A DNA stretch of 64,000 bases from Candidatus Altimarinota bacterium (GCA_013368515.1 JABWCI010000003.1:62001-126000), one strand, 5' to 3'. Shown: positions 28,484 through 64,000, counted from the stretch's first letter. Translations and numbers: made by a program. The notes: a model not told the origin generated them from the sequence alone.

Positions 28484-28530
28484 AGTCAAATAAAAATGAG
28501 AATAATTCTCATTTTTATTTGACTTTTATT
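28484..28530 (+). terminator. very strong terminator after PBP1A
   Basis: A 19-base perfect stem (AGTCAAATAAAAATGAGAA and its complement) with a TAA loop at 28484-28524, then TTTATT. A second small hairpin GAGATT/AATCTC lies at about 28554-28568, in front of the peroxiredoxin gene. Confidence 0.85.
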
Positions 28531-28599: not shown

Positions 28600-29211
28600 A
28601 TGGAAAATTTTGAATATCCTATGATTGCAAAAATCGATAATAAAGCACCTGAGTTTAACTTACCTGCTTACAATCCAAAGACTGATGATGAAGAAAAAAT
28701 TGCATTATCTGATTTAAAAAATAAATGGGTTGTTTTATTTTACTACCCTGCTGATTTTACTTTTGTTTGTCCAACTGAACTAAAAGATATGGCAGATCAA
28801 GAAGAAAAATTTAAAGAATTAGGTGTTGAAGTTTTAGCTGCATCAACTGATACTGTTTATACACATAAAGCATGGGTAAAACATGAAAGATTAATGCATA
28901 AATTTCCATATAAAATGCTTGCTGATCACAATACTGAAATAGCAGACATTTATAATATATTGGATGAAGATACTGGTATAGCTGGAAGAGGTACTTTTAT
29001 AATTGATCCAGATGGGATGATTAGAGGTATTGAAGTAACTAGTGGTCCATTAGGAAGAAATAGTGATGAATTGATTAGAAAAATCGAAGCTTTACAATTT
29101 ATGAGAGCTCATCCAGGTACAGCTTGTCCAGCTAAATGGGCAGTTTGAGCAAAAACTCTTACTCCTTCTATAAAAATAGCTTGAGAAGTTGCTGAAGCAT
29201 TAGAAAAATAA
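28600..29211 (+). CDS. ahpC: 2-Cys peroxiredoxin, AhpC/Prx1 type
   Basis: A 203-residue peroxiredoxin. The peroxidatic Cys57 is in DFTFVCPTE, and the resolving Cys177 is in HPGTACPAKW. KWVVLFYYPADF and RGTFIIDPDGMIRG are typical of the Prx1/AhpC group. It reduces H2O2 and organic peroxides. The first 182 codons contain no TGA: glycines are GGT, GGA or GGG. Two TGA-Gly codons occur only in the last 20 residues (AVGAKT, IAGEVA). That is unlike the neighbours and suggests selection for GGN in an abundant protein, or late acquisition. No reductase gene is adjacent. Confidence 0.95.
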
Positions 29212-43826: not shown

Positions 43827-43858
43827 AAAAATAAATCCAAAAATGGATTTATTTTTTT
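43826..43858. terminator. bidirectional terminator between prepilin gene and large minus-strand gene
   Basis: Stem AAATAAATCCA/TGGATTTATTT with an AAAA loop and long T run, overlapping the minus-strand TAA at 43857-43859. Confidence 0.85.
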
Positions 43859-46800
43859 ATTTTAAATGTGTATCTATACTAGATTTAATAGTATCAAAAA
43901 CTGATTCTATTTTATTTGATGATTTTGCAAATTCATCTCTTCATCACAATATATTATCAACTGCGTTCATAAGTTTATCATCAGAATCTCATTTTAATAT
44001 TCTTGAAGGAGAAAATTCTTTAAAATCAGATATGTTTAGTCACCAATTTCTAAAATCAATTCAAGTTTCAGTTGTTAAATTATTAAAAGCTAATAAAACT
44101 GGTTCATTACCTCAATGTAATTCAATTATTCATGAAACTATTTCTCTAAGAGTTTGTGTAAGATAAATCTTTTTTAGCTTTAGATCTTCATTGGCATCAT
44201 CACTAAATACTTTAGAGTTAGTAGATTTTAAGTCTTCTGTAATCTTTTGCCACATAACAGGTCAAGTATCTTTACTGACAAAACCTCATCATGTATTTTT
44301 TGCTAAATACTTTATAACTATCCTATATACATCTAATCCAGAAAGTCATTCAGCTCAACATGAATCTCACATATAATCTTCTTTAAAAGTTCATCACTCT
44401 CAAGAAATTATTCTTATCTTACTATACATAGCTCATAAAATTGGATTTTCATCTTTTTTCAAAAAAAGTACTTTATCTGTTTTTGAATACTCTCACTTAT
44501 CAGTATGTAACATATTAAGAGATCTAGATAATGGCTTTCCATAATTTTTCCAAAATTTTTGTGTTTTAAGAAGTCTTTCCTTTTCACTTCATTTTTTACT
44601 TTTAGCAGAGTCATATATATCTTGAGCCTCTTTTACAATGTTAGGAAATTTATTTGGATATGCTTTTCATATTTCTTTTGATAGTTCAAGAATAGTATCA
44701 TTAAATAAATTCATCTCTGGAACAGTAGAGAAAAATTTAGTCATCATTATAGGCATACCAGAACCCCATAAGTCTCTTATATTTAGATAAGTTTTTTGGT
44801 CTAATTCATAACATGCTCATGAATAAAGTAAACAAAAAAATCATTCACTCATATCTTCTATACTTCATCATCTTTCTACGGCCTTTTTAAACCATCATAT
44901 TGCATTTGAAGTAGTTCATCAACTTGCTTCATCCATTCATCATTTTACCATATCAGAAGCCTTTCTTTTTTTAGATGCATCACTATAACCTTTTTCAACT
45001 TCATCTTTTATACCTCACCCCCATTTTCATTCAAATTCTTTATGTAATCTAGATCTTCTTTTAATTCAATTATAGTTTGTAAAACATTGTTTTTTTAGTA
45101 ATCTATGCATTAAATATTCTTCTGAAAAAGTTATTTCAGATTCTTCACATTCTTTTTTAACATCAAGATATAATGGATCTCAAAATTTTCATCCAAATGC
45201 CTCATACCATATATATTTTCATCTAAATTCATATAATGGTCATTTTGCTGTAAGATGTCCATATTTTGAAAGCATAAACATAAGACCTGCCTCTTTTTTA
45301 TACTCTGGAGTATTTTTATTTAAAAGCCATCATTTTATTCTATTAACTGCAATAGGAGAGTCAACTTTTGACAATCAATCTAAAGCTTTATCCATAGACT
45401 CTGCCTCTTCCCTTTCTACTTTGATTTGAAGTTCTGCTCTAAGCTCTTCTGGAAGAAATCATCACATAGAAAGAGCAAATCTAGCTGCCTTTAAATCATT
45501 TCATCTTTTTAAAGTATCTTCTATAGAATTAAGAAGCATCTTAGAACCAGAAATCAAGTCTAAAAATGAAGATTTATCGAATAATTTAGTAAAAAATCAT
45601 GATTTAAATTTATTGTTTGAGTTAACCTCATTATTTTCAAGAGTTTTTCAAGTTTCCCAACTAGGTCTAAATCAATATTTTTCATCATCTAAAATTTGAG
45701 ATTTAAATTGATTCAAATTGTAAGTAACTTTTTTTGCTCACTTAATGAACAAAATTTCTTCTTCTGATTTATCTTTATAATTTTTATCTTTTTTATCTAA
45801 ACTTCATTTTTGTTTTCTTTCTCAAAATGAAACTGTAATTTTATCTCAAGAAATTTCATGTATTTTAACTATATCATCATTTTTATCAGAAATTAGATAC
45901 TCTACTTTTTTGTTTGGATTTTTTTTATTTTCCTCTTTTATTGATAATTTATCATTTTCAAAAGAAAATCATTTCCATTTATCAGATTTTTTTTCAAAAT
46001 CACTTAATAACTCTCAAAAATCTTTTATTTTTTTAACTCTTTTTGTTTTTAATCTAGAAAAAGTTTCATAAAATTCATCATAACTAAATACAACATCTTG
46101 TCATAAAGTTTTGACTGAAATTTCTCAATCTGAAATTTCTCAATCTGGAACTCATATTATCTCATGAATTCATCAGTCTTTAGCTTGTAACAAAACTCAT
46201 TTTCAAAGTTTTAAATCTTTTCAATCAGGATCTATATCATCAAGTTTAGATAATAAAGTTTCAAAATTTAAAAAATCTAATAATTGTTCATCTGAAAAAT
46301 CTCAAGAATTTACAATCTTTTCAATAGAGTTCATTTTTTCTCTATCTAAATTAGTCAATTTTCATTCACTTTGAAGTTTCTTAAACTTATCTAGTTCTTT
46401 TTGTTTAGATTCAATAAACTTTTTTGAATAATTTTTTCTATTTTCATCATTATTTAAATCCTCTTTAGAATAAGAGAAAAGTTCATTAGTAGTAATCTCT
46501 CAAGTTTTAACTTTATCCTTTAAGTCATTTTCACTATGAAAAACAATGTTAATATTTTTCTTTAAAGATAAATTTAAAAAATCAAAATAATCTATTTCTT
46601 TTTCTGTATTAGAAGAGAAAGAAATTATATTGTTAGATCAAACTTCAAAAAACTTTAAAATCTTTTTATCATCATCAAAATCTTTTACCTTTAAAAAAGT
46701 ATTTTTAGTATTTCATTTTTCATCTTTTATTATTATCTCTACAAAATTGCCCTTAGAAAATTTTTCTATATCTTTTATTTTTAAATTTTTACTATTTTCC

Positions 46801-47825
46801 TCTAATTTTTTCTTTAAAATTTCTAAAGTTTGAGGTCAAGTATTTTTTTTATTTATAATATCTTCTCTAATAATAGATTTAAAATCATCTTCCAAATTTT
46901 TAAATCAAATTTCTTTTCAGATTTTCAAAATACTATCATCATCTAAATTAAGAGTTTTTATATCAATAATAACATCTTCTAAGTTAGTAGATGATACTAT
47001 ATTGTTAAAATTATCTTCTCATAATTGATTTTTTAATTCTTCACCAAATAAATCTAGTATTATATATTTTTTAATTTTATCAGCATCACTTTGTGAATAA
47101 TATCAAATTTTAACTAGTAATCATAAACTAGTAGTAGGTATAAAATCTAAAACAAGTTGTTTTTTCTCTAAAGATGTGAAAAAATTAGTTGAAAAAATAT
47201 CTACTATTTCTGTATCAACTATTTTTCATTCATAGATATTTAATAAAATAGTTTTTACTTCATCTAGCATATTATAAGGAATCAATTTTTGAAGTCTAGT
47301 ACTTATATCATTACCTGAAAAATTTAAAAAAGATATATCTAGGTCTTTCTTTTTAAAATTTCAAACCTTTTTTAATAAAGTTTTTATTTTTAAATCTGAT
47401 TTTATATTTATTAATAAATCTTTTTGATCCAATTTATTTATTTCCTTTTCAATTTCTTTAATATCTTTATCTGAAACATCATAATTTTTATAAATAATAG
47501 ATTTTAATATATTTCTAGAGTTATTTATTTGAAAAAAGTAACTTGAAAATTTTCTTTTTAAATCAAAAATAGTTATCTTAGAAAAATCAAAATCTTTTAG
47601 CTCTTCTATATCAGTATTTGCTATAAAATCACTCATTACTTTTTTTAATTCTGAAGACTCATCTATAGAGTCTATTTTATAAACCTCATCCAAAATAACT
47701 ACATTTCTTGAATCAATAGTTTTTTTAGAAAATTCCTTTAAAAAAAGTTCTTTTGAAGTTTGATTCTTTTTAGTATTTTTCTCTACTCAATTATCATTTC
47801 ATGAACTTATATTTAAATCAGACAT
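43857..47825 (-). CDS. very large cytoplasmic protein, family unknown
   Basis: A 1322-residue protein without signal peptide or TM helix. I recognise no domain. The first 700 residues are Lys/Asp/Leu-rich and mainly helical with repeated short beta pieces (DDIVKIHEISGDKITVSFG). The C-terminal 500 residues are richer in Gly, Trp, Tyr and Cys (GKYIWYEAFGGKFG, CGAEGLSGLDVYRIV) and look like a globular enzyme or structural core. Several short beta modules (residues about 395-430, 580-620) resemble small binding domains. It lies downstream of cobW on the same strand, but a terminator-like hairpin separates them. The 60-base upstream gap is A/T-rich. Confidence 0.7.
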
Positions 47826-47932: not shown

Positions 47933-49450
47933 CTAATTACTAAAATTTTCCCATTTAGTAACTCTATTATCAACTTCAAAATACTCATATCTAAGCCAAT
48001 CTTTCATTATATCACTATCACTTGATATTTCTTGAACAATACCATTTTGTAAAAAGTCTTCTATTGTCATATTTTCGTCTATACTCGTATCAAATATATC
48101 TACTCCATATTTTGTTTTTAAAACACTATTCAAAAACATAAGTCTTTTATGACATATATAAGTTGGACTAGCACAATGATTCCTTAATTCTCAAATAGTT
48201 TCAACTTTTGAACTTGTTCAAGCATAAGCCAATCTTTTATACTCAATCCATATAAATGGATTATCATATTTCATTGATTCTCAAAGATGTTTTTGTTTTA
48301 ATTGTAATAAAGTGATTTTTCTAGATAAATCTGAATTATCAACATTATTAGAACTTTTTAATTCTTCTTTTAATAATTGTATTTGATTTTCTAAATTCAT
48401 ATATTCATGATATTGCTCAACAAGAGTAGAGATTTTTCAAGGAGATAATTCAAAATCAATTAATTGCTTATTTCCCATCTCAATAAATAATTTGCTAGAA
48501 TCAGATTCAATCAAATCAAAATCTATTTTTCTAGTAGAAATAAAAGTAATATATGATTTTTCTTGACTATATTTTCACAAAGTTAAGCTTCCATGTACAT
48601 AATCAAACTCTCTATTTCAAACTATTCATTTTGCTCTTATTATAGTTTTATTGTTATCTAATATATTTTTTAATTGCTCTAAATCTATACTTATTTCTCT
48701 TGAAATAGTAAAAACTGGAGCTTTATTTGAATGATTTTTATTTGTATTTCACATCAAAAAATAAGATCACTCTTTATTAGCTTGAGTTCATAATACTTGA
48801 AAAACTTTTTTCTTAGAGTCATGTCTAGCAGTTAATATAGACTGAGATATACCTCTAAAAATATCTTCTGTTTCATGAGAATATTCTTGATTATCAGAAA
48901 CTAAAGGTATATCTATAGTTTTTATTCATGGATTCACTTCATCAAGCCATTTTTGAAAATCTAAAACAGCATCTTTATCTCAATTATTCCATGTCAATCA
49001 TACTATATCTGCAACTCTAATTTGATTTTTTATAACTTGATTTTCAATATTATCACGAAGTCTATGATGTTCTACATCTCATAAAAATATAGTAGAAACA
49101 TCATATCATAAATCAGTCAGAACTTTTTTTATACTTGTTCATTCTGCTATTCAACTTGGTTCTATGATAATATTTTTTGTTTTTCATTTTAATTTAATTA
49201 AAGCTTCTCTTAGGGATTTTATATCTTCGCAACAAACACATCATTCTTGCAATGCAACTATCTCATTTCATTTAATTCTTTTAGAATCTATATTTATAGC
49301 TCAAACATCGTTTATAATCAATATAGTATCATCTGGATAGTGTGGTAATAATCTCTTAACCAAACTTGTTTTTCAAGATCAAAGTGGTCATAAAACAAGT
49401 GTTACTTTTGTATTATTTTCTAAAGATTCTTTTTGTAATGATAAAAACAT
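47933..49450 (-). CDS. CobW/COG0523-family G3E GTPase, extended
   Basis: A 505-residue protein. The N-terminal 190 residues are a G3E GTPase: Walker A GPLGSGKTS (21-29), INDVGAINIDSKRI, and the metal-binding CxCC motif C71-V-C-C74 in QEGCVCCED, then IIIEPSGIAEG. CxCC is the hallmark of CobW/ZNG1-type metallochaperones, which load Zn, Co or other metals using GTP. A long C-terminal part (from about 250) with coiled-coil character (QIQLLKEELKSSNN) exceeds usual COG0523 lengths (about 320-400). The late segment has RNHCASPTYICHKR. It is downstream of two CooC-like ATPases, with a 129-base gap containing a perfect inverted repeat. Confidence 0.85.
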
Positions 49451-49480
49451 TTTTTTATTAAAATATATTAATTTTTAAAA

Positions 49481-49525
49481 TAATCTATAAATTATTGAAA
49501 CTAAGTATCAATAATTTATAGATTA
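49481..49525 (-). promoter_or_regulatory. 18-base perfect inverted repeat before cobW-like gene
   Basis: TAATCTATAAATTATTGA (49481-49498) and its exact complement (49508-49525) with a 9-base spacer, 30 bases before the cobW-like ATG. No T run follows on the minus strand, so an operator or an RNA switch is as likely as a terminator for the upstream ATPase gene. Confidence 0.6.
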
Positions 49526-49579
49526 TAATTATATTATTATTTTGTCAATATAAATAAATAATATAATAAAAAAGCAAAA

Positions 49580-50449
49580 TTACTTTAAAAAATTTTGCTT
49601 TTTTTCATCCATTTTTTTTATTCTTTCTATTATTCTACTATTAGATGAGTTTTTAAATTTCAATATATTACTAACTATATTTTCAATGACATCATCAAGT
49701 TGTTTTGATTTTGATAAAAATAACTGTTTTTTAGAATCTAAATCATAGATTTCGCTATCAAATTCCATTCAATCAATTAGATTGTATCAATCAAATTCAT
49801 TTTTTATAGATGATAAATCTTCTTTATCTATATATTTATTTGGTATAATAATTATTTCTTCTTTTGAAAATCATATCAACTCCAATCAATTTAAAATCTG
49901 TTTAGCAACTTTTATATTTTTAAAATTTGCATCTGTGATAACAAAAATCAAATCAAAACTCATAACAGTAGCACGAGATATCATCTCTACTCAGGCAGCT
50001 AAATCAGCTATCAAAAATTGGTCATTTTTAAGATTTATATGATTCATAAAAACTTTGGACATTTCATAATAATCACACATACTTTCTATTCCCCTTTTTT
50101 CGTCTTCTATAAAACCTAAACTCATAAGTTTTATATTTTCACTAGAAATACTGTATTTATTTATAAAATCACTTTCATAATCATAAAATCAATCTGTATT
50201 TGTTGGTAAATATACTCTATTTTCCCAATCAGACATTTTTGTGCTTCATGTATAATTCATTACTTCTTCTTTTTTTGTTCAAAAAGTAATCAGTTGCTCT
50301 ATATTTTCAAATCATAAAGAAGTAGCTAAATTTACATTTGAATCTAAATCCAAAGCCAATGTTTTATATTTTTTAGAAATCCTATCTATAACAAGAGAAC
50401 TAATAGTTGTTTTTCATGCTCATCATTTTCAAGCAAAAGCTATTTTCAT
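49580..50449 (-). CDS. CooC/MinD-like P-loop ATPase, copy 2
   Basis: A 289-residue ATPase. The deviant Walker A is FAGKGGAGKTT (residues 6-15, with four TGA glycines including the two in KGG), then LALDLDSNVNLATSLG; FLIADLAAGVEM is the switch II region. A single Cys125 lies in ESMCDYYEMSKVF, exactly aligned with Cys125 of the neighbouring paralogue. CooC inserts nickel into CO dehydrogenase and carries a CxC metal motif; here only one Cys remains. No CO dehydrogenase gene is in the window. It is 19 bases downstream of copy 1. The C-terminal 50 residues are Lys-rich and helical. Confidence 0.82.
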
Positions 50450-50468
50450 ATTTAATAATTTTTAAATT

Positions 50469-51338
50469 TTAATGACATTTTTTATCTCATTTTAAAATAT
50501 CAAGTTTTTGTAATCTAGAAAGTACCTCATTTTTATCAGTTTTTAGATTTAATATATTGTTTTTTAAATCTAAAAAACTTTTTTGTAAATCAGAGCTCAT
50601 ATTGTCAAAATCTATATTTCAAGTTATATCCATTTTCATTATTTCTTTAGAAAAAGGGATAACTCAAATTATATTTATATCATCTAAAAACTCTTTTTTT
50701 ATAAAATCTACATCTTCTTTATTTCTTATTTTATTCAAAACAAAATAAACATTTTTATAATCTATAAATTTTAAAGTTTTATATATATCTTTTGCTACAT
50801 CCAAATTTTTTGAATTTGGTTCAAGTGGAATAATTACATTATCAATACTTGCAATAATTCATTTTCAAGCTACTTCACTTCATGCTGCAAAATCTATCCA
50901 AACTATTTCATCATCATTTTCAACAAGATTTGCTAAATAAACCTTTATTGTTTCATTGTAAGGACACATTCAAGTAACTCAGACTCTAGCTACTCTTGGT
51001 GCTCAAAGCTGAATTAAATTTGTATTTCAATCACTATAAATAACTTTTTTTAATATCTCGTCTTGTAAATCAGTCGAAAAAGCTCATTTTCAATCTTTTG
51101 GGAAATATTTTCTTTCATATTCATCACTTGAAACTCAACTTGCTAAAAAAATATCTTTTTTAAGATCTCACAATTCATATATGTCATTATTTTCTTGAAA
51201 TCATAGATAATCTATCAAATTTTTATTCGAGTCAGCATCTATAGCAATAACTTTTTTCTCTTTTGATAAAAGTTTAATCATACAAACACTCAATGTAGTT
51301 TTTCATGCTCATCATTTTCAAATTATGGCAATTTTCAT
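50469..51338 (-). CDS. CooC/MinD-like P-loop ATPase, copy 1
   Basis: A 289-residue ATPase, the same length as copy 2. Walker A is IIGKGGAGKTT, then VIAIDADSNKNLIDYLG. GVTGMCPYNETIKVYLANL carries Cys125 at the place of the CooC metal motif; IVWIDFAAGSEVAGKGIIASID and VIIPLEPNSKNLDVAKDIY closely follow the CooC pattern (D-x-x-AG, EP-x-S). The C-terminus ends KKCH, a possible second metal site. It starts 2 bases after the stop of the nicotianamine-synthase-like gene, so the two are translationally coupled. The target apoprotein is unknown. Confidence 0.85.
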
Positions 51339-51340
51339 TT

Positions 51341-52087
51341 TTATTTCTTAGTAGATAAAATAAAAGAGTTTATTATGTTATTTTTTGGATGAACTATAAG
51401 TTTCATATCAAAAAAATTTTTTAATAATTCTAAATCTATTTTTTTATATAACAATTGTCTATATCAATCACTAGTTCTAGTTAAGATAAATTTAAAGTTT
51501 ATTTTTACTATATTTGATAATATTCTCTCACAATCATCACTCAAAAAAACTAAACTAGCAATATAACATAAATCATAATTATCTTTATCTTCATAATAAA
51601 TAGCATCAGATAAAGAAATATCTATATAATCTTGTAAACCAAGGGAAATAATAAGTTTTTTTGATATATCAACTGCTTCAGGATCAATATCAATTATTTT
51701 TGATTTTATTTTGTATTTTTTTGCTAATATTATTGATGTAAGAGGCAAAGGTCATCATCAAATAAATAATATATTTTTTATATCTCAAAAAAAACTAATA
51801 TTTAAATATTCTAAATTTGTTAAATCAAGATAATTTTGATAATATATAAAGTTTAAAAGTTCAAGTTCACTATTATCTGATAAAATTATTTTTTTAGCAT
51901 AATATTTTTCCATTTCATATTCTCAAATACTACAAAATTTATTTATAGCATAAACTTTTTCTCAAAGTTCAGGCTCTCATTGAGTTTGCATAGCATATTT
52001 ACACAAACTAGAAAATATATCATTTGTTTCATCTCAAGGGGAAAAATCATCCAATTTCTTCAATCTAGTATAAAAATAATCTATCAT
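51341..52087 (-). CDS. nicotianamine-synthase-like enzyme
   Basis: A 248-residue protein that matches nicotianamine synthase (NAS) along its length. Visible blocks are YYQNYLDLTNLE (82-93), FIGGGPLPLTSIILAK (the GxGPxPLTS SAM site, about 108-123), IIDIDPEAVDIS (about 131-142), YDLCYIASLVFL, and the end VHPKNNIINSFILSTKK. NAS and bacterial homologues (CntL type) transfer aminobutyrate units from SAM to make metal-binding opine-like metallophores. A plain methyltransferase is less likely because the PLTS and HP-x-N-x-x-x-NS blocks are NAS-specific. First gene of the minus-strand group, divergent from a DtxR/MntR-type regulator. No CntM-like dehydrogenase or exporter is adjacent. Confidence 0.83.
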
Positions 52088-52103
52088 AAATGATTATAAA
52101 AAG

Positions 52104-52136
52104 TATAAGTTTTTTGATAGTATTAAAAAACTTATA
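52104..52136. promoter_or_regulatory. 12-base perfect inverted repeat in the divergent NAS/regulator gap
   Basis: TATAAGTTTTTT (52104-52115) and AAAAAACTTATA (52125-52136) with a 9-base spacer, 16 bases in front of the NAS-like start. A likely operator for the divergently encoded metalloregulator, or a leader hairpin of the NAS mRNA. Confidence 0.55.
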
Positions 52137-52170
52137 TATGTCAAACTATTTTTATACATATAAAATAAAT

Positions 52171-52198
52171 TTGAATTATAATTATAAAAAAATATAAT
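52171..52198 (+). promoter_or_regulatory. promoter of DtxR/MntR-like regulator
   Basis: TTGAAT (52171-52176), 16-base spacer, TATAAT (52193-52198), 33 bases before the ATG. Confidence 0.65.
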
Positions 52199-52230
52199 GT
52201 TTTATATAAAAATAATTAAAAAAATAAAAA

Positions 52231-52632
52231 ATGAATGAACATATAAATGATGCATGGAAAGAATTTTGAAATATAGAAATAACTCATTCTATTATTCATT
52301 ATTTGTTTGCAATAGACTTTTTAGTAAAAAATAAATGATATTGTAGAGCTGTTGATATAGTAAATAACTTATGAATAACTGCTTGAAGTTGCAGTATATC
52401 TATAAAAAATCTGATTAAAAAAGACTTGATTATAGAAGATGAAAACAAATTTATAAAGTTATCAGATAAATGAGAATACATAACAAAGAAAGCAATATAT
52501 AAAAGAAATATATTAAATGATTTTTTCATATCTATATGATTGAATAAAGATACAGCTCAAAGTGAAGCTTGTAAAATAGAACATTTATTACTTGATGAAG
52601 TTGTAGAAAAAATAAAAGATTTTAGAAAATAA
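52231..52632 (+). CDS. DtxR/MntR-family metal-dependent regulator
   Basis: A 133-residue protein. The N-terminal winged helix-turn-helix reads GYCRAVDIVNNLGITAGSCS then ISIKNLIKKDLIIED and FIKLSDKGEYI. The dimerisation part has the family block KRNILNDFFISIGLNKD and AQSEACKIEHLLLDEVVEKI, whose E-A-C and E-H residues are the metal ligands in DtxR/MntR. No SH3-like third domain, so it is of MntR size. It is divergent from the NAS-like operon with an inverted repeat between them, which suggests it represses that operon when metal is sufficient. rseP follows after 12 bases. Confidence 0.87.
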
Positions 52633-57874: not shown

Positions 57875-57902
57875 AAAACTCTGGGAAATCCCAGAGTTTT
57901 TT
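57874..57902. terminator. bidirectional terminator after riboflavin operon
   Basis: Stem AAAAAACTCTGGG/CCCAGAGTTTTTT with an AAAT loop, GC-rich core. It touches the TAA of the rib operon and that of the minus-strand membrane protein (57901-57903). Confidence 0.9.
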
Positions 57903-60900
57903 ATTTTATTTTAAAAAGTGCTTTATATGACATTCATATTACATTATCCAAAGATTGCATAGTTTTTGGATTTTTTTCAAAATAATTTTTATAAGGTAAT
58001 AAATAGTTAAAATCATTATCATTTATTTTATCACCATCTAATAAATCATTTATATAACTTACACAAAAAGTTCTTTTCTTATATCTAGATATCTTATTAT
58101 CATTTTCATCATATGAATCATAATTTATTCAAGATATATTCATATATTGAATAATATCATTATTTTTATCATATAAATCAATAGCTAATCTTAAACAAAC
58201 ACTATCTGTTTCAATTAATTCAAGAGAATCATTATTAAATGTTTTTAATAAATTTTCATATCTTTTTGTTAAATCATGAGTATCAGATTGATCAATAGTT
58301 GCAGCATTTAAATCTACAAGTAGATATTTTAATCACAATTTTTTTAATCTATCTATAGTTATATTTGAATCATTATCATATATATAATCATCAAAAGAAA
58401 AAATCAAACTATCTTCAAAAAGTCTATTATTATTTTCACTAATATAATATTTTAAAAAAGTTCAAACTCTATATATTTTTTCTTTATTAAGATAATTTTT
58501 ATCAGGATTTTGTATAGATTTATATAGATTTTGTATAGATTTTTTCGCTTTTAGTTCATATTTTTCATCATTTTGTAATTGTTTTAATATATCTATAATT
58601 TGAGATATATTTTCAAATTTTACAGTTGAAATAAGCAAATATAATTCCTCATCTATATTATCTTTTAAAAATTCTTCTCTTTTTGATTCATCTATATTTA
58701 ATGTAAAAAGTAAATTTTTATAATCATCATGATATGCAAAAATTGCTTCGGCTTGGCTCAATTGTCAAACTTTGAATTCAGTATATCAAGCTGATTTTAA
58801 ATTTGAAAATGTATATGGAAACAAACTATTTAAAAAATAAATCAGCACTAAAAGTAAAAATGAGATTGTTCCAATAACTTTATACATATATTTTTTCTCA
58901 TCTATATCATGATTATAACTAGTTATAAAAAATGCTCATAATCAAATCATTAACAAAAATGAAAAATACATAGTTATACCATACCACACTATTCAAAATG
59001 CAGATATTAACCATAAAAAAGTATATACTGATGCAAAAATTAAATTTAATTTAAATATATAATTTAATTTTCATTCTTTTAAAGTAAAAAGTAAATAAAT
59101 AGTTGGAATAATAAATGATCAAAATATAAAAATATAACCTAAAGGTAGATTAATTTTTGCAAAGAAATCTACTATTTTTCATTTTATAGTTCTAGTTTCA
59201 TTCCATATTTCATTTATAATATTTAATTCTTCTTGAGAAGAATCATTTTTAATTAGTAATTGATTTAAAGTTACAATATCTCCTACATTAAAAAATGAAG
59301 TATTATTATAAATTTGATTTAATTTTTTAATATATAAATAATCTTCTTCCTCTAATGGGATAGTTATAAATGTAAAATCTTTTCATAATGATGGGTCTAA
59401 AACTTTTTCTTTTAATTCTAAGTAAAAATTAGTATTAACAACTTCTTTTAGTTCTAAAAAATCTTTTTCTAATAATTCATTATAATAACTATCAAAATTC
59501 TTATTTAATAAATCTATATTTTTTTGATAAATTAAATTATAATTTTCTTGAGTTTTTATATTTGATTTTTCAATTTGAGAATTTGTATATTCTAAAGCTA
59601 GATTATTTAAATATTCTCTAGTCTTTCATTTTATTTCTTCTACATTTAATCAAGTATATATAACACTATCATCTATATATTTTCCAATATCTATATCATA
59701 TATATTTTCATAATTTTTTGTTTTTTTAAAAACATAGTCATTTGAAGTAAAAACATTGTTTAAACTTCAAGTAGAAACAGAAGAATATAATGAGTTATCA
59801 ATATGCTTTTTATTTGTTTCAAAATAAAATAAAAATTGAGCTATAGACAATCATACAAAAAACAATGCATAATATTTTTTTCTATATGGTAAAAATATAA
59901 AAATAAGTGGTAACAAAGCTAAAAATAAAAATCAAATATCAGTATACTCTCATTTTTGATTAACTTGCATAGTCAAATTCCAAGGCATATAAACAAAATC
60001 ATTTATACCCTTTTCATATCAAAAATACCTTAAAAAATCTTCATTTGTAGTTATAGAGTTTTCTTTTTTTCTTTCAATAGATTTTTCTTGTCATATTTGA
60101 ACTAATTCTTCACTAGTATGTATTTTTTTATAATCAACTCTGAACTCATCTGTTTTACCTCAGATAATAGAAAATATACTTAAATTGGGATATGATTCTC
60201 ATATATTTTTTCAAAACCAAGGCAATAAAACTAAAAATAACCCTAATACAAAAACTAAAAATTCTTTTAAAAATTGTAAAAAATCTTTTTTATATTTTAT
60301 AAAAACATAAGAAAATAATATAAGTCATACGACTATACTAGACAATCAAAAACTAGTTTCAAATCAAGAAATAGCATTTGGATTTATAACTACATTCATC
60401 ATTTTCCATAGATTTGCTATAGTAAACAATCAAAAGAAAATAGATAGATAAGCTAAAAAACCTATTATTCATACTCTAGCAAAAGATATAACTCAAACTA
60501 TAGCTATAATAAGTAAAAGTGCTGTAAATTTTATACTAAAAGCAAATCAAGCTATTAATCATATGATAAATATATATAAGATAGAAGGGGTTTTTTCTTT
60601 TATAAATAATAAAAAATATTTAAATAAGAAAAATAATAAGATTACACTTATAAAAAATAAACCTTCATCAACTTTTAAATCTTTTGTAGTTTGAAATCAA
60701 ACCATTGGCAAAGATATAAAAATAGTTGATAAAATAACTGGAATATTAATTATAGTATCTTTTTTATGAGAAACTGATTTTATAAGATTTGAAAATACTA
60801 ATAAAAGTACTATATAAGTTAAAAATAATCCTGAAATATTTAAGAAAAAAGCAAAAACTGGTGAACCAAACATATAACCTATACCTGTAAAAGTTTGCCA

Positions 60901-61695
60901 ACTATACATAGCTCAAAGAGAAAGTAAGTTTCAAGCTTCTGCCATAAGATGAGGATAATTCATATATACTCATAGATCATCCCATCATATTGGGAAAGGT
61001 CTAACTATAGATATAAGTCAAACTCATAGAACTATAAAAGAAAAAATAGTAAAAAACTCTACACTTAAAAGATTTAAATATGATCATTTTTTTATATCAA
61101 ATTCATATTTTAATTCTCATAAATCTCTAAAAATAATAAATAATTGTTTATAAGAAAAAGCTAAAAATCAAATTAATATACCAAAAACTATAAATAAATT
61201 ATAAAATCAAAGCACTCAAAAAACAACTAAAATTGATATAAAAGATATAAATCAAACTACTAGTTCCAACATCCAAAAAACTCATTTTCAAAAGTCATCT
61301 TTATTTGGTAATCTTTCAAGAATTTTTTTACCAAATGATGTAGATATAAAAAATATAATTATAGGTAAAATACTATAAATTATAATCTTGAAAAATAAAT
61401 GAAATCAGTTTAAAAAACTATTTCAAAAACCAGTTAAATTAAAATAATATATACATAGAATAAATAGATTTAGTAAAAAAAACCATATGATAGATTTTAA
61501 AGATATAGAAAATTTTTCTCTAGAATAATCAAGTTGAAAATATTTATATATCGCATAAATAATTGCTACCACTATAAAGTATGAAAGATATCCATCAAAA
61601 TTTGATGTATGTCATGGAAATACAAAATAATAATTAAATAGAATAAAAAAAGAAAACAAAAGTAATGCGAAAACTTTCAATAAATAACTAAGCAT
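57901..61695 (-). CDS. very large polytopic membrane protein, glycosyltransferase-like (GT39/YfhO-like)
   Basis: A 1264-residue protein with about 15-18 TM helices in three blocks. The region FPIGWDDLGVYMNYPHLMAEAG near residue 230 has the Asp-rich first extracytoplasmic loop typical of GT-C glycosyltransferases (PMT/ArnT/YfhO-like). Two large non-membrane regions follow (about residues 620-820 and 960-1264), both helical and Asp/Asn/Lys-rich. It might transfer sugars from a lipid carrier to protein or glycan outside the membrane. No accessory sugar genes adjoin it. Assignment rests on topology and that one loop. Confidence 0.6.
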
Positions 61696-63021: not shown

Positions 63022-63054
63022 AAAAATCTTGATTTAAAAATCAAGATTTTTTTT
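63020..63054. terminator. bidirectional terminator between malic-enzyme gene and luxS
   Basis: Stem AAAAAAATCTTGATTT with its complement, long T tail, overlapping both stop codons (63019-63021 and 63053-63055). Confidence 0.85.
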
Positions 63055-63532
63055 ATTGTGGATAATATAAATTATGTGGTTTTATATCAAGTAATACTTC
63101 ATTTAAATATTTATTTGATAAGTATTTAGCCATAGGTAAATTCATATCAAGATAATTTCAACAATCACGAGCACTTTGTCCAGGAATTTCTCAGATAAAA
63201 TCTCTCATAAAAGTATACAGTTCTATCAAAAGTGGAACTATATCTTTTGATTCATAATCTCAATTTAATAAAAGATAAAATCAAGTTCTACATCACATAG
63301 GACCAAAATAAATTATTTTACTTCCATATTGACTATGATTTCTCAAAAATGTAGCTCAAAGGTGCTCTATAGCATGCATTTCTGCATTATTCATAACAGG
63401 TTCAGCATTTGGTTTTGTCATTCTTAAATCAAAAGTAGTAACTATACTATTACCTACTTCATCTTTTCTAGAAACAAAAACTCCAGGAAACATTCTTGTA
63501 TGATCTATCATAAAACTAGCTATTTTTTCCAT
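63053..63532 (-). CDS. luxS: S-ribosylhomocysteine lyase LuxS
   Basis: A 159-residue LuxS. Zinc ligands H53 and H57 with E56 in MHAIEHLGA, and C124 in ARDCGNYL. The second Cys, C81 in MGCRTGFYL, is the catalytic one. DLRMTKPN and GPMGCRTG are typical blocks. It makes homocysteine and the AI-2 precursor DPD from S-ribosylhomocysteine. The adjacent upstream gene on the same strand is the SAH nucleosidase that makes its substrate, a complete two-step recycling route. Confidence 0.96.
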
Positions 63533-63676: not shown

Positions 63677-64000
63677 TTAATTAATTATTTTTTCTAAAAC
63701 TTTTAAACTATTCTGCATAGCAAAATCTAGATTTCACATATGAGCATCTTTTGCATCACTATCAGCTCAATCTGATATAGCTTTTATAAAAATACAATTA
63801 TCAAGTTTATCAAATTCTCTTGCAACAGATGCAACAGCAAAAGCCTCCATTTCTATCACATCTGCGTTATATTTACCTCTCAATTCTGAAACTTTGTTAT
63901 TATCATCTATAAATTGATCTCCTGTTAAGCAATACGAATTATTTACAAGTTTAAATTCAAAATCTCAATCTAAAAATATATTATTATTTATAACTATTTC
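63677..64000 (-). CDS. mtnN: MTA/SAH nucleosidase, C-terminal part (cut by window end)
   Basis: The last 107 residues of a 5'-methylthioadenosine/S-adenosylhomocysteine nucleosidase. The catalytic-site helix VIEMEAFAVASVA and the strand FIKAISDGADSDAK with the general-acid Asp are present. The N-terminus lies beyond base 64000. It cleaves SAH to adenine and S-ribosylhomocysteine, the substrate of LuxS encoded 145 bases downstream. Partial gene because of the window edge, not a truncation in the genome. Confidence 0.92.

Follow-up and report, generated by a model that had tools for sequence, protein, structure and literature searches.

Why would a cell with a genome of ~1.15 Mb keep a nicotianamine synthase (NAS) together with dedicated nucleoside triphosphatases (NTPases), and with no export genes adjoining it? 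The question is raised by a 64,000-nt stretch of DNA from a Candidatus Altimarinota bacterium (hereafter the window), which lies within a genome of 1,154,102 bases in 28 contigs (G000). It encodes a NAS-family enzyme, two CooC-like ATPases, a COG0523 GTPase fused to a helical domain that I call DX, and a divergently oriented DtxR-type metalloregulator. Bacterial nicotianamine-type chelators are mainly known as secreted zincophores, and the lack of export genes beside NAS suggests internal use of the chelator, as in plants. On balance, the cluster is interpreted here as a metal-starvation module that would respond to iron (less likely to another divalent metal) through a DtxR-type repressor, make an intracellular nicotianamine-like chelator, and transfer the metal by means of NTPases.

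A five-gene cluster read in genetic code 25

Translation of the region with table 11 gave short fragments only, while table 25, in which TGA encodes glycine, gave five intact open reading frames (Table 1). Genetic code 25 is the code of Gracilibacteria and SR1, and the many in-frame TGA glycines indicate that the genes are native to a code-25 genome. The gene run proposed in the first-pass annotation, with a NAS-like gene, two CooC-like ATPases, a CxCC GTPase and a divergent DtxR-family regulator, is present and intact under this code. A Pfam search bore out the family assignments as well: all five proteins exceeded the curated cut-offs, with NAS at 1.1e-35, CbiA at 3.1e-15 and 5.9e-09 for the two ATPases, and the remaining two as given in Table 1. 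No opine dehydrogenase was found among the five genes by Pfam, the flanking genes being judged by eye, and the cluster does lack this enzyme and an exporter, as had been noted at first pass. A terminator scan of the region found no terminators.

Table 1. Features of the cluster, with positions counted from the first base of the window
Feature	Position (strand)	Size	Evidence or remark
NAS-family enzyme, P0001	51341..52087 (-)	248 aa	9 TGA=Gly; PF03059, fold, catalytic residues
CooC-like ATPase 1, P0002	50469..51338 (-)	289 aa	closest solved relative CooC; deviant Walker A
CooC-like ATPase 2, P0003	49580..50449 (-)	289 aa	33% identity to P0002; Walker A present
COG0523 GTPase fused to DX, P0004	47933..49450 (-)	505 aa	cobW 1.3e-22; GCVCC motif
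Domain DX, segment of P0004	47936..48457 (-)	174 aa	helical, without Pfam match
DtxR-type metalloregulator, P0005	52231..52632 (+)	133 aa	Fe_dep_repr_C 8.5e-10
Candidate operator AACTTATATATGTCAAACTA	52129..52148 (+)	20 bp	overlaps NAS -35 box; FTR1-promoter motif match
NAS promoter TTGACA-16-TACTAT	52117..52144 (-)		consensus scan
Inverted repeat across NAS -10 region	52104..52136	arms 16 nt	94% complementary
Inverted repeat upstream of COG0523 gene	49480..49526	arms 23 nt	96% complementary

Conservation of the neighbourhood, to which the first-pass annotation had looked, was found in a second genus of the same family (G030), where the five-gene set is kept. NAS, COG0523-DX and both ATPases lie there in one run, and a relative of P0005 (54%) starts ~80 bases from the end of a different contig. 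The ends of the regulator contig and the NAS contig share an exact overlap of 18 bases, and joining them gives the regulator the divergent orientation to NAS that it has in the window. Between the two genera, conservation is highest in the ATPases (65% identity for P0002 and 61% for P0003; NAS reaches 46% and the GTPase 42%), and both NAS promoters have TTGACATATATAA[G/C]TTTTTT and a TAnTAT -10 box in common. NAS itself is rare: among 60 genomes it occurred in 3, one of them that of the window, and among 380 genomes of the phylum in 5.

The NAS-family enzyme, its regulator and the operator-like site

P0001 matched PF03059 along its whole length with 123.8 bits (cut-off 27.1). Its closest solved relative was the archaeal MtNAS (9.3e-18), with CntL far behind (~4e-05), and a CntL-type model gave 26.2 bits, below its cut-off of 350. 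The structure model of P0001 (predicted local distance difference test, pLDDT, 93.2) was superimposed on MtNAS with a Z-score of 28.6 and a root-mean-square deviation of 2.0 over 240 residues, on CntL with a Z-score of 23.3 and on other methyltransferases with 17.9 at most; the modelled fold is that of NAS, with an N-terminal helical part and a Rossmann-like S-adenosylmethionine (SAM) domain. Residues E60 and Y86 align with Glu81 and Tyr107 of MtNAS and are invariant across the six sequences of alignment A4. In MtNAS these two residues are catalytic, in line with the titles of the solved E81Q entries, in which Glu81 is replaced by Gln. By sequence and model alike, P0001 is a true NAS-family protein, and its family membership indicates that the product is probably a nicotianamine-like chelator. 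An identity as azetidine-2-carboxylate (AZE) synthase was considered and rejected, as AzeJ ranks far below MtNAS.

NAS-like enzymes differ in their starter amino acid (PMC10248798), and P0001 could in principle be a SAM-dependent aminobutyrate transferase or methyltransferase acting on another substrate and not in chelation, with metal genes as its neighbours by chance. This appears very improbable given the Z-score of 28.6 to MtNAS (the highest-scoring general methyltransferase reached 17.9), the invariant Glu and Tyr, and the partnership with DX and COG0523 across the loci found. SAM synthetase (metK) and a methylthioadenosine/S-adenosylhomocysteine (MTA/SAH) nucleosidase are encoded in the genome and LuxS in the window, so that SAM supply and by-product removal are possible. 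LuxS (63053-63532) adjoins the MTA/SAH nucleosidase (63677-64000) at a distance of 11 kb from NAS, and the two could clear the NAS by-product.

The regulator P0005 matched Fe_dep_repr_C with 38.9 bits (cut-off 27), and its closest solved relative was MntR (2.8e-12, in a gapless alignment). It has His23 and Cys114 where MntR has Asp8 and Glu99, and its 59.2 bits against the MntR equivalog model fall below the cut-off of 138. The C114-x-x-E117-H118 residues match DtxR Cys102, Glu105 and His106 and are invariant across ten family members. Judged by these residues, P0005 is a DtxR-type and not an MntR-type regulator. IdeR owes a preference for Fe(II) to sulfur ligands at this site, and ligand swaps with MntR alter the metal response, so that the cysteine at the DtxR Cys102 position would favour Fe(II) for P0005 as well (PMC10317159). 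The first-pass annotation had proposed a DtxR/MntR sensor of Fe or Mn; the DtxR family stands, while MntR and Mn give way to a likelier iron, owing to the cysteine at the selectivity position and to relatives tied to the iron permease FTR1. Among 76 genomes of the order, 12 have a relative of P0005, and in three (G006, G447 and G450) it is divergent from FTR1. At loci L062, L067 and L068, FTR1 is divergent from a P0005 relative with a 20-bp near-palindrome in between.

The three FTR1/regulator intergenic regions contain near-palindromes, for example AAGTTTGGCATGTCAAAGTT, and a symmetric test motif was built solely from these three FTR1-promoter sites of other genomes. The candidate operator of Table 1 was the second-best site for this motif in the 64 kb of the window. 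In the whole genome, which was rebuilt from stretches for the scan and holds 107,776 intergenic bases in total, it was the top intergenic site, the other 24 of the best 25 being intragenic. The site between regulator and NAS in G030 ranked first in 17 kb, scoring 18.0 as compared to 6.7 for the next. Further regulon members in G000 were not found, either as another intergenic site among the best 25 or with a relaxed pattern, which showed no excess over a reversed control (31 vs 47). No FTR1-type site was found at the COG0523 promoter, and none ahead of the regulator gene in G019, G017 or G031.

The inverted repeats that the first-pass annotation had placed at likely control points do exist, but they are ordinary in this genome: 241 near-perfect palindromes of this kind occur in 1.15 Mb, and the repeat upstream of the COG0523 gene ranks 29th and the one across the NAS -10 region 209th among them. 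Long palindromes being this frequent, the repeats are weak evidence of control and were rejected as operators, and the informative element is the separate site at 52129-52148. The two half-sites that make up the COG0523 repeat occur as a pair nowhere else.

Two CooC-like ATPases and a GTPase fused to DX

Few clients are established for the metallochaperones of the COG0523 group and for those related to CooC, and a partner chelator would render their metal hand-off testable. P0002 was homologous to CooC across most of its length (8.7e-18), and a profile from seven of its relatives reached 1e-32. CooC contains a deviant Walker A motif, GKGGxGKTT, and a strictly conserved Cys112-x-Cys114 at the dimer interface (PMC6006190). 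The deviant Walker A is retained both in P0002 (GKGGAGKTT) and in P0003; at the cysteine pair only one Cys is aligned in either protein (TGMCPY in P0002, ESMCDY in P0003), and the CooC relatives of three further genomes (G008, G019 and G439) have Cys-Tyr-His. The earlier statement that CooC proteins insert nickel finds no support here, as the Cys-x-Cys nickel/zinc site is not conserved in the two ATPases. P0002 and P0003 are the sole KGGxGK[TS] proteins found in the genome and are therefore no stray copies of ParA or MinD. The cluster contains no CO dehydrogenase (CODH), for which no genome-wide search was run, and no relatives of P0003 were found in viral contigs.

Relatives of CooC and of COG0523 insert metals in an NTP-driven manner (PMC9164220), and the ATPase pair and the GTPase may mature one metalloenzyme, with NAS merely supplying the metal for that step; the ATPases being best conserved between the two genera (65% and 61%) would fit. 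This explanation is nevertheless improbable, because the cluster has no conserved enzyme that could be the target, the ATPases have lost the Cys-x-Cys site, and the CooC relatives of G008, G019 and G439 sit with pyridoxal phosphate (PLP) enzymes resembling small-molecule biosynthesis.

Within the order, the CooC subfamily of P0002 and P0003 was present only in these three genomes, G000 and G030. Where NAS is missing, its members adjoin a LysA-like decarboxylase (G019) or a decarboxylase and a cysteine-synthase/SbnA-like enzyme (G008 and G439), and the one in G008 also adjoins a ZigA-like GTPase. CooC-like ATPases were seen in operons with a LysA/ornithine-type PLP decarboxylase (L033 7968-11574, L039 3268-7165 and L032 9032-12205), two of which add a C-terminally extended cysteine-synthase/SbnA-like enzyme (the extension in L033 being rhodanese). 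The PLP genes may belong to a new small-molecule pathway. It is a guess that they, too, serve to make a metal ligand, but one that fits a link between the ATPases and small-molecule chelators.

P0004 matched cobW with 80.6 bits (cut-off 20.7), has a G3E GTPase domain in which CxCC takes the form GCVCC, and is the sole CxCC GTPase found in the genome. Its closest solved relative was YjiA (3e-07). The match to CobW_C was 15.2 bits, below the cut-off of 22, and the COG0523 domain is followed by the ~170 residues of DX, whose model (pLDDT 88.5) is nearly all helical. No sequence relatives of DX were found in the PDB or in viral contigs, and a Foldseek search of the PDB gave no match with E<=0.001, the best E being 0.55. 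VIA-align matches in the PDB fell mostly on the hairpin of helices at the N-terminus (residues 1-62), whose shape is a common one. As modelled, DX is possibly a new fold, with the second aligner covering little past residues 1-62.

Scanning 84,980 species genomes by pattern, an approach that depends on conserved motifs and may miss remote relatives, returned six DX loci. All are in candidate-phyla bacteria: two of the Gracilibacteria type, three in Saccharibacteria and one in a Paceibacterium, with DX being a separate gene in the latter two groups. NAS adjoins DX or lies at most three genes away in 6/6 loci and in the window. NAS-family genes without DX occur in two other candidate-phyla genomes, so that DX implies NAS and not the reverse. 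These genes (L015 9652-10446 and L016 9204-10043) are distant family members and have neither COG0523 nor CooC neighbours.

Iron or zinc, and comparison with known systems

In G000, a Zur-like gene lies next to ZnuABC, and a PerR-like regulon uses a box of its own; the genome has no FTR1, and a search by regex motif only gave neither a FeoB signature nor an NRAMP-like transporter. Together with the ligands of P0005 and the link and site in common with FTR1, the separate Zur-ZnuABC locus and the PerR-like regulon make iron the likeliest signal, and in the G000 lineage an iron-starvation operon is the most likely reading of the cluster. The operator common with FTR1 suggests an iron response in a lineage of little-studied metal biology.

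As to product, metal, retention and transfer, I infer the following course of events. At low iron (less likely another divalent metal), the P0005 repressor would leave the site over the NAS promoter. NAS would join an amino acid to aminobutyrate units of SAM, and the resulting nicotianamine-like chelator would be retained in the cell. Exchange of metal between the chelator and client proteins would be the task of the COG0523-DX GTPase and of both CooC-like ATPases, at the expense of GTP or ATP.

Several observations weigh against this interpretation. The candidate operator partly overlaps the -35 box, which may inflate its score, and the FTR1 motif rests on three sites only. The DtxR Met10 position is a conserved His23 in P0005, so that the choice of metal is not readable from the sequence alone. 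The ATPase pair accompanies NAS in two genomes only. Lastly, in G017, two Saccharibacteria and the Paceibacterium, the neighbours of NAS-DX are regulators of Fur/Zur type, ZigA-like COG0523 or further genes of zinc type, and the chelator may accordingly serve zinc. Around NAS, G017 carries a ZigA-like COG0523 (2.1e-151 to NF038288), a further COG0523 and a Fur-family gene that shares 45% identity with the Fur beside ZnuABC in G000. At L020, a His-rich COG0523 is accompanied by a Fur-family gene and by a permease that is ZIP-like by motif, and the NAS-COG0523-DX genes of two Saccharibacteria (L013 and L014) are near an ArsP_1 permease, DUF1980 and a Fur-family gene.

COG0523 proteins are often part of zinc responses (PMC2770081), and the same machinery could be an intracellular zinc buffer and delivery system, under a DtxR-type regulator in this lineage. 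I regard this as possible, if doubtful, since zinc uptake in G000 has its own Zur-ZnuABC locus and the NAS promoter site is common to FTR1 promoters. An iron-linked site in G000 and zinc-type neighbourhoods elsewhere indicate that the chelator module probably serves more than one metal.

The preferred reading of an iron-starvation operon may tentatively be extended to a nucleotide-driven metallophore relay, in which the CooC-like ATPases and the COG0523-DX GTPase would load and unload the intracellular chelator, with DX docking the chelator or NAS. If true, CooC-like ATPases with two chelator-like pathways (NAS, and the decarboxylase with a cysteine-synthase/SbnA-like enzyme in G008 and G439) would form one new class of system.

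Some further features of the genome were recorded alongside the cluster. The sequence TGAGAATAATTCTCA is located at 28497-28511 of the window, ahead of a peroxiredoxin gene (28600-29211). An exact 7-1-7 palindrome, TGAGAATNATTCTCA, has six occurrences in the genome, all of them intergenic, and precedes genes for a peroxiredoxin, thioredoxin, thioredoxin reductase, a ZIP transporter, a Fur-family protein and a PHP-type protein (ZIP and Fur by Pfam, the other products mostly judged by eye); these sites are likely a PerR regulon. Two very long proteins of 1322 and 1264 aa without Pfam match are encoded at 43857-47825 and 57901-61695 of the window.

A literature search on NAS together with COG0523, CooC, Patescibacteria or the candidate phyla radiation, with most subscription papers outside its reach, returned no description of such a cluster. 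Each protein family is already known individually; the combination of families, DX and its constant association with NAS, and the site common to FTR1 promoters are new. P0001 resembles MtNAS (PDB 3fpe) in family, whole-length fold, the equivalents of Glu81 and Tyr107 and the GGGPLPLT SAM loop, but at 26% identity, and it differs in being part of an operon with CooC-like ATPases beside COG0523-DX. The staphylopine and pseudopaline (Cnt/Zrm) zincophore systems likewise have a NAS-family enzyme under a metalloregulator, whereas the cluster studied here is without opine dehydrogenase, histidine racemase, exporter and importer. CooC (PDB 3kje) shares near whole-length homology and the deviant Walker A with the ATPases, which in contrast do not keep the Cys112/Cys114 pair and have no CODH genes beside them. 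P0005 has the winged helix, dimerisation domain and C-x-x-E-H ligands of DtxR/IdeR, yet differs from them in the His in place of Met10, the loss of the ancillary His and the lack of an SH3-like domain, and from MntR in the Cys that replaces Glu99. Finally, P0004 has a G3E GTPase domain with CxCC in common with the COG0523 GTPases ZigA/ZagA, YjiA and CobW, and, unlike them, bears the unrelated C-terminal domain DX, which provides a sequence marker for such systems.

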